Of a stretch of DNA of 45,217 bases, positions 17,475 through 24,559 are shown one piece after another. The notes beneath the pieces are model-generated. The model ran no database searches. It was not told the origin of the DNA and worked only from the letters and a program-made list of their open reading frames with translations. The DNA comes from Bacteroidota bacterium (GTDB lineage: Bacteria; Bacteroidota; Bacteroidia; JABEUT01). Location of the stretch: NCBI GenBank assembly GCA_013289475.1, contig JABCZW010000018.1, positions 1-45,217 on the forward strand. The letters are read 5' to 3'. A program made the translations under genes and the position numbers. Position 1 is the stretch's first letter. Every line of letters starts with the position of its first letter.

Positions 17475-17533
17475 TTACCGCAGAAACGCTAAGGCGCAAG
17501 GCCTTTCATTTCTATTGATAATTGACAATTTTG
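17475..17533. repeat. intergenic repeats: ACCGCAGAAACGC type and TTGATAATTGACAATT type
   Basis: ACCGCAGAAACGCTAAGGCGCAAGG is a relative of the ACCGCAGAGAACGCAGAGG array at 19357-19400. It is followed by TTGATAATTGACAATT, whose reverse strand encodes the last residues (IVNYQ) and stop region of the lipoprotein at 17512. Confidence 0.5.
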
Positions 17534-18441
17534 TCATGGAAAACTTCTTTCCCCATTTTTCCGTTTTGAAACACCTTTTGATCATAGTTCCAATAATAAT
17601 AGGTAGTACTTTTAACATCAACAGGTTTCTTCCTGTCATTTTCATAAGTATGCTCACATGCAATTTTAATTGAAGCATATCGCCTTTCTGAATCGGGCAA
17701 AAAGGTTATTTTTCTGTCAATCTCATCATCGGTTTCATTTCCTTTTTCATCCAGCTCCGATTGGTAATCTACCATCCTGCAATTAAATATTTCATGTATC
17801 GGACGTGAATCATCAATATTATAATAATATATGTCTTTAAAATAACCACCGGAGCCTTGCCAGTCGCTGGTAATAAACAAGGCATAATCGTCCCAGTATT
17901 GGTCTCCGCCAAATTTTTGTATCCCCAAACTATCAGCCTTGTGGCCCGACTGCCCCATAGTGGCAAAGTTTTTATTAAAGCATTGTACCTTATACGTGTA
18001 CCCATCTTTAACCAACTCCGCTATTCCATAATTCGCGCCGCACCAATGGCATGAACCTGCAAATACTCCATCATTATCATAAACCAGGGTGGTAAATACA
18101 ACCCAATAAACCTCATCGCGGTATGTTTTCTTGTATGGCACTTTTATAATGGTATCAATATTGGTATGGCAATAACCATCGTCCGATAAGTTCATATTAA
18201 GCTTATCCTCCGGAGAAGGTTTCCAAATAGCTATTTTCTTGTCAACCCTGATAGGGTCAAAAAATGCCTGCAATAACTTCACCGTATCAAACGGAGAATC
18301 TACATGCCAATCATGGGTTTGATGATAAAGATTATCCCGGTTAACGGTATCTTTCTTTTTAGCTGATACTATATCTTCTGCCACATGCGGATTATTGCAG
18401 GCGCAAACAAATATTAATAGTATAAAAGTTAAATATTTCAT
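17512..18441 (-). CDS. lipoprotein, tandem paralogue B with a CxxC motif
   Basis: 309 residues. The leader MKYLTFILLIFVCAC has a lipobox with Cys15 as the likely lipidated residue. Conserved with its upstream neighbour are WKPSPEDKLNMNLSDDGYC and the IDTIIKVP block, then a Cys cluster GSCHWCGANYGIA. A CxxC set beside a third Cys (DDGYC) suggests a metal site or disulfide, but no known fold is recognised. Its ATG overlaps the stop of paralogue A by 4 bases. The final residues are encoded by an AATTGTCAATTATC-type repeat, so the native C-terminus may have been altered. Confidence 0.85.
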   Translation of the reverse strand: MKYLTFILLIFVCACNNPHVAEDIVSAKKKDTVNRDNLYHQTHDWHVDSPFDTVKLLQAFFDPIRVDKKIAIWKPSPEDKLNMNLSDDGYCHTNIDTIIKVPYKKTYRDEVYWVVFTTLVYDNDGVFAGSCHWCGANYGIAELVKDGYTYKVQCFNKNFATMGQSGHKADSLGIQKFGGDQYWDDYALFITSDWQGSGGYFKDIYYYNIDDSRPIHEIFNCRMVDYQSELDEKGNETDDEIDRKITFLPDSERRYASIKIACEHTYENDRKKPVDVKSTTYYYWNYDQKVFQNGKMGKEVFHDKIVNYQ

Positions 18442-19298
18442 TTCTTTACTGATTCATATTGCTCACTTGAGCTATTCCATGAATAATATTTGTTGCTGAC
18501 CTTTGTAGTCCTTTTCTTCTCGGTCTCAATATTATAAGTAGTTTCTGTGGTTATTATTTTCAAATCATCATATTCCTCATTCTTTTTATTTGGAATAATA
18601 ATAAGCTTCCTTTCGTACGCCTTCCTGTAACCAGATGTATCACCGAACATATCTTCGTGAGTATTTAAACATTGAAATCTGAAAACCTCTGAAAATGTAT
18701 TTATATCATACAAGGTTTCAAATTCATAAAAAGCTGAGCCCTGGTAACCATTTATTATATCAAGTACATAATTTCCTTTGCCTATCTTTTTTAAGGTGAT
18801 ACTATCATTCATACCGTAAGTATCATTAAAAGACGTCAAAGAATTCCGACTAAAGCTTTCAAGTGCTTTTCCCGAGATACGGGCGTAGCCATATGTAAGC
18901 TTACAACTTGCGCAATTGCATACTCCATTTCTATAATTCTGCCTTGTGATAAATATTATAAAATACAAAGGCAAATGATGGTAAGATTTTTTCTCATCCT
19001 CAATTTTAAAAATGGTATCGATGCAGGTGTAACAATAACCATCGTCAGATACTGACATATTAAACTTAGCATCAGGGTCGGGTTTCCATTTGGCATTTTT
19101 ATTTATAATGGTATCCGGCGCAAAGAACTTCCTTAATAGTGCATTAGTATCACTTATTGATTTAATCACTTTATCACTATCTATTTGATTCGATACCGTT
19201 AGTTTCTTCGCAACGGCAACAACCTCCTTTTTTGCAGGTTGGTTATTGCAGCCGCAAACAAAAACAAATACTATAAAACTTAATGAGAGTGATTTCAT
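18438..19298 (-). CDS. lipoprotein, tandem paralogue A with a clustered Cys motif
   Basis: 286 residues from the ATG at 19298 (MKSLSLSFIVFVFVCGCNNQ), chosen because it gives a compact lipoprotein leader; in-frame ATGs at 19319 and 19310 only add residues. Cys17 is the likely anchor. Shared with paralogue B: WKPDPDAKFNMSVSDDGYC, TCIDTIFKI and the Cys cluster GVCNCASCKLTYGYA. The DDGYCYTC block adds another Cys pair. Overlap of 4 bases with paralogue B implies co-translation. Function unknown. Confidence 0.85.
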   Translation of the reverse strand: MKSLSLSFIVFVFVCGCNNQPAKKEVVAVAKKLTVSNQIDSDKVIKSISDTNALLRKFFAPDTIINKNAKWKPDPDAKFNMSVSDDGYCYTCIDTIFKIEDEKKSYHHLPLYFIIFITRQNYRNGVCNCASCKLTYGYARISGKALESFSRNSLTSFNDTYGMNDSITLKKIGKGNYVLDIINGYQGSAFYEFETLYDINTFSEVFRFQCLNTHEDMFGDTSGYRKAYERKLIIIPNKKNEEYDDLKIITTETTYNIETEKKRTTKVSNKYYSWNSSSEQYESVKK

Positions 19299-19351
19299 AC
19301 AGAAGAGCATATTTACCATAACTAAGATACGAAAAAAATATTGTCTTTTAG

Positions 19352-19436
19352 TTTAACCGCAGAGAACGCAGAGGAATACACGCAGAGAACGCAAAGTGCT
19401 TTGATTCGTAATTCGTAATTTTTAATTCTTAATTGA
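19352..19436. repeat. two repeat families at the left edge of the accessory island
   Basis: First ACCGCAGAGAACGCAGAGG with a second GCAGAGAACGCAAAG unit, then ATTCGTAATTCGTAATTTTTAATTC. The 18-base core ATTCGTAATTTTTAATTC is repeated exactly at 32064-32081 inside the GIY-YIG gene. The array lies between the phage portal gene and the lipoprotein pair, where further phage genes would be expected. Confidence 0.6.
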
Positions 19437-19475
19437 ATCGGCGTTAACGCCGATTAAGCTGTTCGGTATAAACAT

Positions 19476-20726
19476 CTAGTTGCCTTCAGGCACGTTTACT
19501 TCTCCTAAGCCGAGAGCTTTACGTTTTTCGTTTAAGGTCATCCACCAGGCCTGTGCCAAAATGTTTACACGGCTCTCTTCATCTTCGCGTATCTCTTCAA
19601 AGTGCTGCTTATCTACCTCAAGGCAGTAACGGCGGCCATCGGCTTTTTCAAATTCTGGCACAAGGTTGCGGTTAAGGCTATCTACAAACAGGTGCAATTC
19701 GGGCAATACACAATTAGTGATTAAGGCTTTGCGGGCTTCCTGCATATTGTTATAGGTCTTGTTATCGGGGTCGTTGAGCAACTGACTGCTTATGCCATAT
19801 ACATTACATATATCGCGCATGCTGGCTTTCTGTCCTTCCCACAAACCAAGGTCTTCGGCTTTCGCTCCGGTAGTTATCCAGTTCATTTTGCCGCCGGTAA
19901 TTAATATTTTACCATAGTTAGCAGGGCCTCCATATTTCTCCTCATACTTCTTTTGCAGGGCATCAACCTGGGTTTGGTCATACTGAATGTTTTCGTCGGT
20001 GATGGTCAATATACCTGTCGGGCCAAGGTTTTTAATGAGCTTCATGCTGGCTTCGTAAGCATCGTTGCTTTGTGCCACCACCTTGCGTGCAGCAGCCAAT
20101 GGAGATACTCCCCTTACTGTTCCGTCGGGGTTCCAGTACTTGGTAAATATCAGGTCGCCTGGTAAAATCTGTTCGCTGTAGCGCCCGTTTACATAATTGA
20201 ACGATTTGGGCAAACCTGTGCTTTCATCGAGCGATATGCTTACAAACTGCGGAGGCACCGTTATTAATTGTATTACCCTGCCAGCATTGGAGCCTGCCTG
20301 TACACGTATTTTAGGTATAAAACATTCACCTGTCAATAGCTTATAGCCAAACACATTCTCGATAAACTCAGCACGGCCCTGGTAAGGGTTTGGCCTTTGC
20401 AATAAGTCCAGTATAGGGTGCTGTGTAAGCTCTACCTTGTTGGCAGAGTTGGTAACATCGAACAATTTATAGTGCGCCTTGGCGGCGGTGCGGGCAATCA
20501 TTTCAATTACGGCATACACATTGGGGTTTTTACGGTAGCCATCGCGTATATACGAGCGCGGATCGTCGCCAATGTTATAAATAGCGCCTTCCTGTACATA
20601 GGCGTAGCTAATGCTGGCTCCCTTGGTATGCAGGCCATTTTTGTCATCGGTTTTATTGCTTTTGTCGCGGTTTAAGAACCTGTTAGCAAAAAAGCCAAAA
20701 AAAGTTTGTTTATTTTTCATTTTCAA
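19476..20726 (-). CDS. phage portal protein, HK97 type
   Basis: 416 residues, full length for the family. Known role: the portal is the dodecameric vertex through which DNA enters the capsid. Visible features include VYAVIEMIARTAAKAHYKLF near the N-terminus, QHPILDLLQRPNPYQ, GECFIPKIR, the segment GDLIFTKYWNPDG, YGISSQLLNDPDNKTYNN and the helical C-terminal part with TLNEKRKALGLGEVN. It is third in a minus-strand order small terminase, large terminase, portal. No prohead protease or capsid gene follows; repeats and a lipoprotein gene do. The 405-base gap to the large terminase is unusually long for a phage and is filled with repeats. Confidence 0.92.
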   Translation of the reverse strand: MKMKNKQTFFGFFANRFLNRDKSNKTDDKNGLHTKGASISYAYVQEGAIYNIGDDPRSYIRDGYRKNPNVYAVIEMIARTAAKAHYKLFDVTNSANKVELTQHPILDLLQRPNPYQGRAEFIENVFGYKLLTGECFIPKIRVQAGSNAGRVIQLITVPPQFVSISLDESTGLPKSFNYVNGRYSEQILPGDLIFTKYWNPDGTVRGVSPLAAARKVVAQSNDAYEASMKLIKNLGPTGILTITDENIQYDQTQVDALQKKYEEKYGGPANYGKILITGGKMNWITTGAKAEDLGLWEGQKASMRDICNVYGISSQLLNDPDNKTYNNMQEARKALITNCVLPELHLFVDSLNRNLVPEFEKADGRRYCLEVDKQHFEEIREDEESRVNILAQAWWMTLNEKRKALGLGEVNVPEGN

Positions 20727-20766
20727 TTTATGTTTGTCACGTTTTCATGACAGTGGTTATAATCTT

Positions 20767-20800
20767 TAAGCCCTGATCTCTTCCAAGAGGTCGGGGCTTT
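20767..20800. terminator. strong GC-rich hairpin between portal and large terminase
   Basis: AAGCCCTGATCTCTT pairs with AAGAGGTCGGGGCTT over 13-15 positions with two G-T wobbles. On the plus strand it is followed by TTTTAGTTT, so it looks like a plus-strand terminator although the flanking genes read on the minus strand. It may therefore be part of the repeat block and not a phage signal. Confidence 0.5.
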
Positions 20801-21131
20801 TAGTTTGGGGCCCTCATCCTTCTTCTCCCAAGCGGGAGAAGCGTTACTAAACTTCTTCGCACTAACGTCACTGCTAGTCCGGGCTTTACGCTACTATCCC
20901 TAACGCAGAAAGGCACGGCACGTGAGGTGATGAGAAACGATGATAGGCAATGACACATAGATGCAAAGAATTGTGCATAAGTAATTTTTATTTTATTGTA
21001 TTTACGAGGGCTTCGCCGTTGTGCCAAAACCAAACTAAGCATATTTTTTTTGAATATTGAGGTTGCTTCGTTCCTCGCAATGACGGTACCCATGTTTTCA
21101 CTCATAACTCATAACTTATAATTCATAACTC
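20801..21131. repeat. composite of multi-copy intergenic repeats, no gene
   Basis: The gap holds, in order: a CTTCTCCC/GGGAGAAG hairpin; a GC-rich block with CCGGGCTTTACGCTACTATC; GGCACGGCACGTGAGGTGA (20912-20930); AATGACACATAGATGCAAAG (20949-20968); TTGTGCCAAAACC (21019-21031); GCTTCGTTCCTCGCAATGAC (21064-21083); and ACTCATAACTCATAAC with TTATAATTCATAACT (to 21130). Several modules recur in the same order at 28436-28571, and the CCTCGCAATGAC module recurs at 30303-30322. An open frame exists through it but is repeat-encoded. I see no real gene. Confidence 0.7.
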
Positions 21132-22367
21132 TTATGCAAAGCATAATTTCTTCTTCTTCGGATAACTATACACATACCGGATAGCATCAATGGCATGGTC
21201 GAAGTCTTTAACGGGGCGGTGTATGAGGTGTCCATCTTTATTCGTATCCCACATATACTGGCGGAACTCTTTAATAAGGTTCACACTTTCGGCAGTTACG
21301 TTTATTTTACGGTCGAGCAACAGGTTAATCCCAAACTCGACACTGTCGGCGCCTTTGCCTGCAGGCTTTAAGCCCAGCCATCCCTTGCGGTACAGGTAGT
21401 CGATTGTTTTAGGTTCAGCGCTATCGGCAACAGCCAGGACATTCAGATCGATGTGCTCGTGGGCAAAAGCAAATAGTTCTTCATTTTGCATACCACTGCG
21501 ATAAAGCAGTTCATGTATAAAGAGTTCTCCGTTGCATTCATTAACCTGTACAATGGCGGTAGGTGAATGGGTAAAACCAAAATCGATACCATAGCCCAAA
21601 ACCTGGCCTGGCAGGTTTTGGGAGTTAAAAGTGGAAAGTGAAAAGTTAAAAGTTTCGGAATTTTCATTTTTTATTTCTTGTACGTCACTATTCACTTTTA
21701 GTTTTTCACTTTTCACTCGTATTACTCCCCAATTGCTAAACACCACTCCCTCCGCCACACCTATCTCCCCTTCTCCATATACCTTCCACCAGTTAAGGTT
21801 GTTGCGGCGGCGTTCAATGTTTTGTATTTCCTGGCTGGTCAGGTATTGGTTATCGCGGTAGGTAGACTTAAGCAATATATGATCTTCTCCGTGCAGTTGT
21901 GGCAATAGGTCGTTGTGTACCCAAAAACGGCGTACGGGGTTGAAGTCGAGGATGGTAAGTTGGCGTGTACGTACGTCCAGTTGCTGGAATGATTCATAAT
22001 CAACATTGTTACATTCGTTAATAAATAAAATATCGCGCCTTGCCCCGCGGAGCTTAGCTGCATTGTCGGCCGAGAAGAACTCCACCACCGACTTGCCGAT
22101 ATAAAAGGTGTGCTCGGTCTTATTTTCTTTTACCATGCCATCCCACCTGTTCATGGCCAGTATGCGTTTAAAATCGCGTATGGCACCGCGTTTAAGGTGA
22201 GGGAAGCTTTCAGCAACAACCGACACCAGGTAAGGTTTTTCCGACAGGATAGTGAGCAAGGCAATGTATTGCAAAATGGTAAATGTTTTACCCGATCCGG
22301 TGCCTCCCTGGTGAATGATGTAGCGGGTTTCAGAAGAATTACAATTGAGGGATTTTAAATTAAACAT
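21132..22367 (-). CDS. phage terminase large subunit carrying a repeat-derived insert
   Basis: 411 residues. The ATPase has Walker A GGTGSGKT (21-28) and Walker B DILFINE (112-118); the nuclease has Asp262 in YGIDFGFTHSP, Asp315 in LAVADSAEP and Asp394 in DFDHAIDAIRY. Known role: the motor and nuclease that cut and pump phage DNA into the portal. Between the domains, residues about 218-251 (from KSEKLKVN to NFSLSTFNSQ) are encoded by an imperfect palindromic repeat also found outside genes here. It lies at the ATPase-nuclease linker, keeps the frame and leaves all motifs intact, so the protein could still be functional. Confidence 0.92.
   Translation of the reverse strand: MFNLKSLNCNSSETRYIIHQGGTGSGKTFTILQYIALLTILSEKPYLVSVVAESFPHLKRGAIRDFKRILAMNRWDGMVKENKTEHTFYIGKSVVEFFSADNAAKLRGARRDILFINECNNVDYESFQQLDVRTRQLTILDFNPVRRFWVHNDLLPQLHGEDHILLKSTYRDNQYLTSQEIQNIERRRNNLNWWKVYGEGEIGVAEGVVFSNWGVIRVKSEKLKVNSDVQEIKNENSETFNFSLSTFNSQNLPGQVLGYGIDFGFTHSPTAIVQVNECNGELFIHELLYRSGMQNEELFAFAHEHIDLNVLAVADSAEPKTIDYLYRKGWLGLKPAGKGADSVEFGINLLLDRKINVTAESVNLIKEFRQYMWDTNKDGHLIHRPVKDFDHAIDAIRYVYSYPKKKKLCFA
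21620..21719. repeat. in-frame palindromic repeat inside the large terminase gene
   Basis: The arm GTGGAAAGTGAAAAGTTAAAAGT (shown in part: GTGGAAAGTGAAAAG) near 21630-21652 and the inverse of the 21695-21717 arm agree at 20 of 23 positions. One arm also matches the non-coding copy at 23480-23502 at 22 of 23 positions. The element adds about 34 codons without disturbing the frame. Confidence 0.75.
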
Positions 22368-22419
22368 GCTGTTTGTGGTGTCGGAAATTGAGGGTTTAGT
22401 GTCGGAAAAAAAAGTTTTT

Positions 22420-22941
22420 TTAGTTCCCTGAATCTAACCTCCCCTGCTCCCGTATTCTTTCTACTGCTAATCGTTCTTCTTCGTTGTCTACCACAATCTC
22501 TATTACCCGGGGCTGATTGGTATCAATGTCTTTGTAAACCTTACGCATTTTCAACAACAGGTCGATAGCGTTAATTACCTCGGCACACGAAGGGCGGCAC
22601 TTGACGGTGGTAATTTCTTTACCATCCCTCACAATTTTATCGAACTCAACCTTACCCGATACAATGGCGCATAGCCTTGCTTCGAGTTCCAAATTGCTCT
22701 TCAGCCATGTTTCGGCTTCATGGGCTATAATATCGGCGCGGACAGATTCAATAACCGCCTCACGTTTTTTCATCCGGCTGGCAACAAGGTCGCGGGCAAA
22801 GGCAAGGTAACGCTCAATACTGCGACTACTAAGGCCCCATTTGGGCATATATTCCTTCAGTATCTGTGAGGTGCTCCAGCCGCTCTCCAACTTGCGGGCA
22901 AGCTCGGTTATCTTAAGCTGGTATTCGGTTTTGTGGTTCAT
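22420..22941 (-). CDS. phage terminase small-subunit-like DNA-binding protein
   Basis: 173 residues. The N-terminal third (WSTSQILKEYMPKWGLSSRS, then IERYLAFARD) reads as a helix-turn-helix, fitting recognition of the packaging site. The middle is helical and charged (RADIIAHEAETWLKSNLELE); SCAEVINAIDLLLKMRKVYK and VDNEEERLAVERI look like the oligomerisation part. The assignment rests on its length, the DNA-binding pattern and its position just before the large terminase, in the canonical order; sequence similarity alone would be weak. The ATG is preceded by GGTTAGTGG-type repeats and a composite palindrome, not by a phage gene. Confidence 0.75.
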   Translation of the reverse strand: MNHKTEYQLKITELARKLESGWSTSQILKEYMPKWGLSSRSIERYLAFARDLVASRMKKREAVIESVRADIIAHEAETWLKSNLELEARLCAIVSGKVEFDKIVRDGKEITTVKCRPSCAEVINAIDLLLKMRKVYKDIDTNQPRVIEIVVDNEEERLAVERIREQGRLDSGN

Positions 22942-22962: not shown

Positions 22963-23098
22963 GATTCCTCGTTGCATTTCATTTCACTCGGAATGACAGG
23001 CATAGCGGGTATATGAGGAAAAGGGTGCGGGCAAAGCCCGCCCCCTTTTCCCACAAAACATTTAACCAAGCTGTCATTCCGAACGAAGTGAGGAATCT
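22963..23098. repeat. composite inverted repeat of about 136 bases
   Basis: Outer arms: GATTCCTCGTTGC...CTCGGAATGACAG at 22963-22999 and its inverse CTGTCATTCCGAACGAAG to AGGAATC at 23071-23097. Nested inside is a 15-bp hairpin at 23017-23051, GGAAAAGGG and GCGGGC pairing with GCCCGC and CCCTTTTCC through an AAA loop. The whole could extrude as a cruciform. It lies just upstream of the small terminase start. The CATTCCGA/GAGGAATC block is a type often repeated in Bacteroidota genomes. Confidence 0.7.
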
Positions 23099-23587
23099 CA
23101 TGAATTTATTTTTATTGGATTGAGTGGCTGAATCAATTTCAACTGCAAAAATAAACATTTTGTTTATTAGTTGTAATTTTAAACGCATTTAGTTTTCAAC
23201 AACCCAAAAAGCATCCTTAAAAAAATAGATTCCAAAACTGTTCACTTTTCACTATCCACTTTTCACTTTTTGCCAGCGGCAAAACAAAGAGAGAAAGAAA
23301 AGCATTTCTCCTTTCATCTCTCCCCCATACCCCCTTTCTTACTATCCTCTTATTAAAAGAAAGAGAGAATAAAGCGGATTTTTCGATTTTTCAATCCGCC
23401 GGAGCTGTTGATAATCAACAATAAAAAACCTACGCGAAACCTATAGCTTAGCACTAGGTTATTTTTAGGTTGTTTTTGAGTGAAAAGTGAAAAGTTAAAA
23501 GTGAAAAATATGGCATTAAAAATGAATCAAAAAAAATTGATATATTCGATATAATTAATTAGAAAAACCACATACAATTCATTTATT
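23099..23587. repeat. 489-base gene-less region with inverted repeats
   Basis: No convincing gene is seen. It holds CACTTTTCACTATCCACT at 23243-23260 and its inverted relative GTGAAAAGTGAAAAGTTAAA at 23480-23499, about 220 bases apart, the same element as the terminase insert. Between them are a CT-rich tract (23290-23350), a hairpin GCGGATT/AATCCGC at 23374-23399, and TTGATAATCAA at about 23408-23418. The hairpin could be an end of a mobile element handled by the nearby Y1 transposase, but there is no direct evidence. Confidence 0.5.
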
Positions 23588-24100: not shown

Positions 24101-24559
24101 ATGGCAGATACCTACGCTCAAATTTATGTGCACATTGTTTTTGCGGTTAAAGGCAAAGAGAATTCAATTTCTCCGCGCTGGAAGATTGAACTTTACCAGA
24201 ATATTGCAGGCATAATTGTAGACGGCAAACAAAAGCTTATTGCCATAAACGGCATGCCCGATCATTTACATATACTCGTTGGCCTGCAGCCCAACAAAGC
24301 CCTGAGTGACCTTATTACAGAAATAAAAACAGGCTCAACAAATTTTATTAATGGCAAAAACTGGGTTACGGGTAAGTTTGAATGGCAGGCTGGCTATGGT
24401 GCATTCTCATACAGTCCATGGCAATTAGATACCATTGAAGCCTATATTAAGAACCAGGATATGCATCACCACAAACAAACCTTCCGCGAAGAGTACCAGC
24501 AGTTATTACAATCGTTCAATGTTGATTATAAATCGGAGTTTATTTTTGAGGATTTATAA
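24101..24559 (+). mobile_element. IS200-like Y1 (HUH) transposase, RAYT type
   Basis: 152 residues, a CDS of the REP-associated tyrosine transposase/IS200-like class. The HUH pair is His55 and His57 in PDHLHILVG; the nucleophile is expected at Tyr115 in AYIKNQ, and WQAGYGAFSYS is the family's central motif. Known role: Y1 enzymes nick single-stranded DNA at hairpins and mobilise or spread them. No clean IS200 ends are seen beside the gene, so it is better read as a free-standing RAYT than as an intact insertion sequence. AGCATC-ATA-GATGC forms a small hairpin just after the stop. Large palindromes lie about 1 kb upstream. Confidence 0.85.

Follow-up and report, generated by a model that had tools for sequence, protein, structure and literature searches.

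Within the gene for the large terminase subunit in the window, by which we mean the whole stretch of Bacteroidota DNA analysed here (45,217 nucleotides), lies a palindromic repeat that leaves the reading frame intact. How did such a repeat come to occupy the linker of a packaging motor, and is it alone there? An earlier note on this DNA had placed the insert between an intact ATPase and an intact nuclease domain, and both domains were indeed recovered as Pfam matches on either side of it.

Results

The terminase gene and its insert comprise the following features.

21132..22367, minus strand: terminase large subunit gene (P0001), 411 aa
21765..22325, minus strand: ATPase domain, Pfam match to Terminase_3, residues 15-201
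21171..21584, minus strand: nuclease domain, Pfam match to Terminase_3C, residues 262-399
21618..21716, minus strand: in-frame palindromic insert, residues 218-250 (VKSEKLKVN...NFSLSTFNSQ), without counterpart in homologues outside the genus
21630..21653, plus strand: arm 1 of the inverted heptamer repeat of the insert, 24 nt, 88% complementary to arm 2
21694..21717, plus strand: arm 2 of the same repeat, 24 nt

The peptide runs from KSEKLKVN, whose first residue is 219, to NFSLSTFNSQ, whose last is 250. The insert is encoded by an imperfect inverted repeat, as the note had described with essentially the right figures, and only one of 200 dinucleotide shuffles matched or exceeded the folding stability of its DNA (z -3.25). 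A structure model of the terminase built with 38 sequences (mean pLDDT 83.6) had its best structural matches in the terminases of phages D6E and Sf6, the low whole-chain TM-scores probably reflecting uncertain domain orientation. Residues 220-249 form the sole internal segment with a pLDDT below 50 (the C-terminus is also low); the model predicts a disordered loop for the insert, which, judged by pLDDT, sits at an unstructured position that fits the fold. The surrounding region (17512-22941) holds a portal gene, the terminase and three unknown frames, with no capsid gene recognised, and is perhaps a remnant prophage or a domesticated packaging cassette. Further repeat-like DNA lies beside the terminase gene, namely GGAATGACAG / CTGTCATTCCGAACGAAGTGA at 22979-23091 and, within 20800-21110, TTCGTTCCTCGCAATGACG together with a CTCATAA run near 21100.

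The arm consists of 7-nt units (AGTGAAA AGTGAAA AGTTAAA AGTGAAA), and arm 1 is 96% identical to positions 23479-23502, the copy near 23480 to which the note had pointed. Two arms of this heptamer family lie between genes in the window.

23479..23507, plus strand: intergenic heptamer arm, same family as the insert
23237..23270, minus strand: second intergenic heptamer arm, inverted to the 23479 arm, 89% complementary, 211 nt apart

Searched with the insert, the window's own genome (2.62 Mb, 57% complete) gave 22 DNA matches, the insert itself included. Roughly half of the copies examined lie between genes and half in open frames, the count of coding and non-coding copies being one that the note had asked for. 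Inverted heptamer pairs with a short spacer are also present at C16 of the same genome and in genome G010, as are single arms. In one orientation, coding copies fall in the sorting tails of type IX secretion (Por_Secre_tail was confirmed for L003) and in the opposite orientation at the position of putative signal peptides, cases that were read from the sequence. At L003, L007, L012, L021, L022 and L307, the arm occupies the same spot of the secretion tails (YPNP...ELKVNSEKLKVEVYN). The insert is multicopy palindromic DNA with copies both in unrelated proteins and between genes, and these properties support, by analogy, the note's comparison in principle with the Rickettsia palindromic elements (RPE).

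We measured the linker from W213 to G260 in 214 terminase rows drawn from viral contigs, genomes and the window's genus, some genus loci standing twice, once per collection. The linker has 17 aa in 168 of the 214 rows and 14-21 aa in nearly all others; lengths of 32-49 aa were found solely in the window's genus, two more long rows being misaligned non-terminase matches. Homologues outside the genus lack the inserted residues, a point for which the note had asked for this comparison, and the linker is filled within the genus only. The same residues recur in two congeneric terminases (L024 and L027), whose family also matches other places in genome G005, and in no terminase from an unrelated genome.

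Seven congeneric terminases with long linkers were read out. The heptamer element is present in L024 and L027, whereas the elements of L025, L026, L031 and L035 are G+C-rich, that of L035 being classed by its appearance and one match to another locus; L028 has a 28-residue linker with no recognised repeat. The inserts are always in frame, and when seven close terminases were aligned, no part of the protein outside the linker varied comparably in length. A single genome, G003, has three terminase loci (L024, L031 and L035), each with a different linker. The L025 element consists of two 35-nt hairpin arms, inverted to each other and separated by a spacer that varies; single arms are frequent. 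It has 11 matches in G002, 18 in G005 and 3 in G007. The L027 family gave 17-21 matches in each of G000, G005 and G010, and the L026 and L031 elements fewer and partial ones. According to record titles, the other terminases with repeat inserts come from metagenome-assembled genomes (MAGs) of one soil study, and the named close relatives are Bacteroidetes MAGs, mostly from one soil study. The terminase linker is a hot spot, not the site of a single insertion. The note had called a repeat at the linker of a motor protein unusual; the insert is real, but it is not an isolated case, as different repeats have repeatedly settled in this linker and in loops of other proteins of the phylum.

The linker is decoupled from the history of the gene. 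Between the window and L027, DNA identity is 62% in the N domain, 79% in the linker and 72% in the C domain, whereas between L027 and L031 it is 80%, 35% and 82%, respectively. In a tree built without the linker, L027 joins L031 and L035 (96/95) and not the window and L024. The heptamer linker requires three changes on the terminase tree, two of them forced by well supported branches; with its few rows, this tree shows more than one origin or exchange of the linker, and no rate can be derived from it. Both terminase domains are under purifying selection, with dN of about 0.07-0.25 against dS above 1.1, although dS is near saturation and the ratios are therefore rough, and the dN/dS of the linker (0.21/0.38) lies above that of the domains. 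A single old insertion passed on by recombination could account for the heptamer insert that the window's terminase shares with L024 and L027. No high-identity empty allele of the window's terminase was found among 11 congeneric genomes, nor a close one in IMG/VR, where the best match has under 50% identity; the idea of a recent insertion in this lineage was dropped on these grounds.

A hairpin of leucyl-tRNA synthetase (LeuRS) offers a parallel. The LeuRS stretch is present in 142 genomes, about 20 of which match in two pieces, most broken at one place. Between IGRSEG and TTRPDT, the hairpin has 15-23 aa when empty. Its occupant is a CGTC-ended palindrome in G095 and G127 (for a total of 34 aa), a palindrome with a 7-nt period in G074, and a DUF559 domain with arms at nine loci (154-241 aa). 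Filled and empty states occur within single genera: G073 is filled and G030, G108 and G140 are empty in genus g21, G063 is filled and G019 and G099 are empty in g10, and G095 and G127 are filled and G013 and G059 are empty in g4. The terminase linker shows this pattern too, and in the LeuRS hairpin, as there, one of the occupants is a heptamer-type element. At L485, L491, L499 and L502, from several genera, short heptamer-like DNA lies in the hairpin with its length unchanged.

The G+C-rich family fills loops of other proteins as well. A loop of SpoIIE phosphatases (GDFYW...DCTGHG) was read at about 95 loci; its length is 13 aa at most of them but 39 aa at two, where the filler is the G+C-rich family in frame. 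Further in-frame copies lie in a second SpoIIE loop, in glycosyltransferases and in a DUF2400 protein. All coding copies inspected share one reading frame (AP.PSPLGK...VLPNGEDLGGA), which we attribute to stop codons in the other frames.

In the SpoIIE protein of L252, the GDFYW...DCTGHG loop contains a domain of DUF559, which we take to be a Vsr-like nuclease, and this domain ends in the repeat arm KVLPNGEDLGGA; a relative in G005 has DUF559 in the same loop. DUF559 is present in 139 of 295 Bacteroidia genomes, and among the matches listed 71 of 149 tabulated frames have at least 300 aa. At the 29 loci that were read, the domain lies within LeuRS, MetH (two sites), IleRS, acetyl-CoA synthetase and HsdR proteins or at the end of a PurL-like protein, and the inserts are mostly bordered by arm peptides. 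When left and right flanks were compared as inverted repeats, 35 DUF559 loci gave a median score of 32, against 19 for mismatched loci and 24 for the 99th percentile of the shuffles. A second test detected inverted arms at 23 of 33 DUF559 loci, at 13 of 22 Y1_Tnp loci (positive control) and at 1 of 26 SpoIIE loci (negative control); mismatched DUF559 pairs reached the same score in 24% of cases because arms at different loci resemble one another. A LeuRS row of this control was set aside, as homology among its loci distorts the value for mismatched pairs.

The arm of the L025 terminase linker is 88-92% identical over 33-36 bp to arms beside DUF559 in L455, L456, L467 and L470, among them LeuRS genes of other families. 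This match links DUF559 directly to the G+C-rich class, not to the heptamer class of the window. No heptamer arms were found bounding DUF559, the heptamer matches at DUF559 loci being solely those of L452 and L455, downstream of the SpoIIE gene, and DUF559 was rejected as the mover of the heptamer family. Splicing of the inserts was likewise rejected, as none of ten DUF559-bearing hosts scanned has a splicing (Hint) domain; the terminase insert itself (33 aa) is too short for one.

Discussion

We consider it highly probable that the insert is an RPE-like multicopy coding palindrome which entered the frame of a prophage terminase at its linker, a hot spot that was subsequently re-occupied. An element made of an arm of 7-nt units, a spacer and the inverted arm would have entered at the flexible linker between motor and nuclease, and would owe its survival to a frame without stop codons and to a linker that can accommodate an unstructured loop. 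Within the genus, the linker has been filled on several occasions, by the heptamer family and by an unrelated G+C-rich double-hairpin family, new repeats replacing or joining old ones where insertion does little harm. We infer that the element inserts by a copying event and not by recombination between terminases, and that the mover of the G+C-rich family is the DUF559 nuclease, encoded by a gene that bears the same arms. DUF559 would thus be the mobiliser of that class, but it could also be a passenger that settles in repeats. Our guess for the heptamer family is a spread by slippage and template switching at hairpins. Chances seem to us evenly balanced that Bacteroidota harbour a mobile class composed of palindromic arms around a DUF559 gene whose coding strand is open in frame, which inserts into loops of essential proteins and remains unspliced in the mature product, with the arms-only terminase copies as non-autonomous members and the same loops reused by unrelated palindromes.

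A long linker might instead be a selected functional feature of this terminase lineage, the repeats merely contributing disordered sequence to reach a required length. Within the genus, most close homologues do keep 29-45 aa between FxNW and GYG, and L028 retains its 28 residues with no recognised repeat. Linker length and sequence nevertheless vary freely, with a dN/dS above that of the domains, and L029 of the same genus has a linker of 17 aa, making this explanation unlikely in our view. Growth of the heptamer stretch in situ through replication slippage, as the 7-nt period might suggest, is similarly improbable: slippage yields no inverted arms, whereas the stretch has two of them around a spacer, like its counterparts at C16 and in G010, and the G+C-rich hairpins that occupy this site in other terminases are no heptamers. 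Heptanucleotide repeats are nevertheless widespread according to PMC4679880, which cites work in which they form the most abundant class in most genomes surveyed, and the heptamer-like sequence in the LeuRS hairpin adds no length.

The paired arms also recall REPINs, inverted REP doublets linked to REP-associated tyrosine transposases (RAYTs) (PMC3116915), and the window contains a Y1_Tnp gene 0.6-0.9 kb from heptamer arms.

24101..24559, plus strand: IS200-like (Y1_Tnp) gene near the intergenic heptamer arms, its role in moving them being unsupported

Y1_Tnp genes occur in 10 of the 11 genomes. Yet the G+C-rich families are found at none of 30 Y1_Tnp loci, and heptamer arms lie within 1.5 kb at two only; the flank test is able to pick up arms beside Y1_Tnp genes, but these arms are their own and, in the one case read (L321), differ from ours. 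No RAYT gene flanked by the same repeat emerged, a RAYT was rejected as the mover, and a REPIN origin of the insert appears quite improbable. At L321 (G005), the hairpin arms that bound the Y1_Tnp gene are CCACGACCTTTAGGTCGTGG, unlike the terminase-linker families. Least probable is assembly chimerism. All genomes concerned are drafts and repeats are typical sites of misjoins, but the flanks share one gene and one frame in seven loci, and differences within genera recur at LeuRS over many assemblies.

In-frame palindromes are known from Rickettsia, Wolbachia and Methanocaldococcus (cited in PMC2996958). These too are multicopy palindromes, in frame at unstructured positions of unrelated housekeeping proteins and also between genes. 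The present families belong to another phylum, and their likeness to RPE is one of analogy only; unlike RPE, unrelated families here share one position, and one of them shares its arms with a nuclease gene. According to PMC3733652, GTAG/CGTC REPs lie inside genes, tRNA synthetases included, as singles and dimers that encode 20-30 aa, and CGTC repeats are reported in Bacteroidetes. The LeuRS inserts of G095 and G127 start with CGTCA and end with TGACG; the heptamer arms of the window, in contrast, carry neither tag at their ends. That paper places repeats at different sites within uvrA/uvrB and not at a common one, and the passages considered do not tie the repeats to DUF559. In the one library covered, fourteen papers mention DUF559, and no title or abstract opening among them links it to palindromes. 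With REPINs, the terminase insert shares the inverted doublet with spacer as its unit and the coexistence of singlets (PMC3116915), but no RAYT is bounded by these arms and a sizeable share of the copies is coding. The DUF559 cases resemble inteins and homing endonuclease genes in placing a nuclease domain in frame inside essential proteins. Unlike inteins, they have palindromic arms on both sides and, in the ten hosts, no splicing domain; the insert would remain in the mature protein.

Ever since the Rickettsia work, coding palindromes have been on record, to our knowledge without a demonstrated mover, and a G+C-rich repeat class that shares its arms with a nuclease gene provides a concrete candidate. 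The best reading is that several families of coding palindromes share loop hot spots in Bacteroidota. The terminase linker, the LeuRS hairpin and the SpoIIE loop, in which related species collect unrelated repeats, form a natural series of empty, arms-only and nuclease-bearing states, in which the cost of insertion to the protein and the turning of foreign DNA into protein sequence could be measured. For DUF559 inside LeuRS or MetH, annotation would shift from domain fusion to inserted element.

Single loci offer minor observations. The L452 protein (G005), which holds DUF559 in its first SpoIIE loop, has an extra repeat-like insert in the second, GERHTEPVEVSTLPIDGLRQAQPD, and a similar-looking STGSGQAG stretch is nested in an arm at L467. 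At L454 (G010; minus strand, 1411-2550), the DUF559 frame passes in frame through the arm RPPPAPSCEER into the downstream protein, by its look a diphthine-ammonia ligase.
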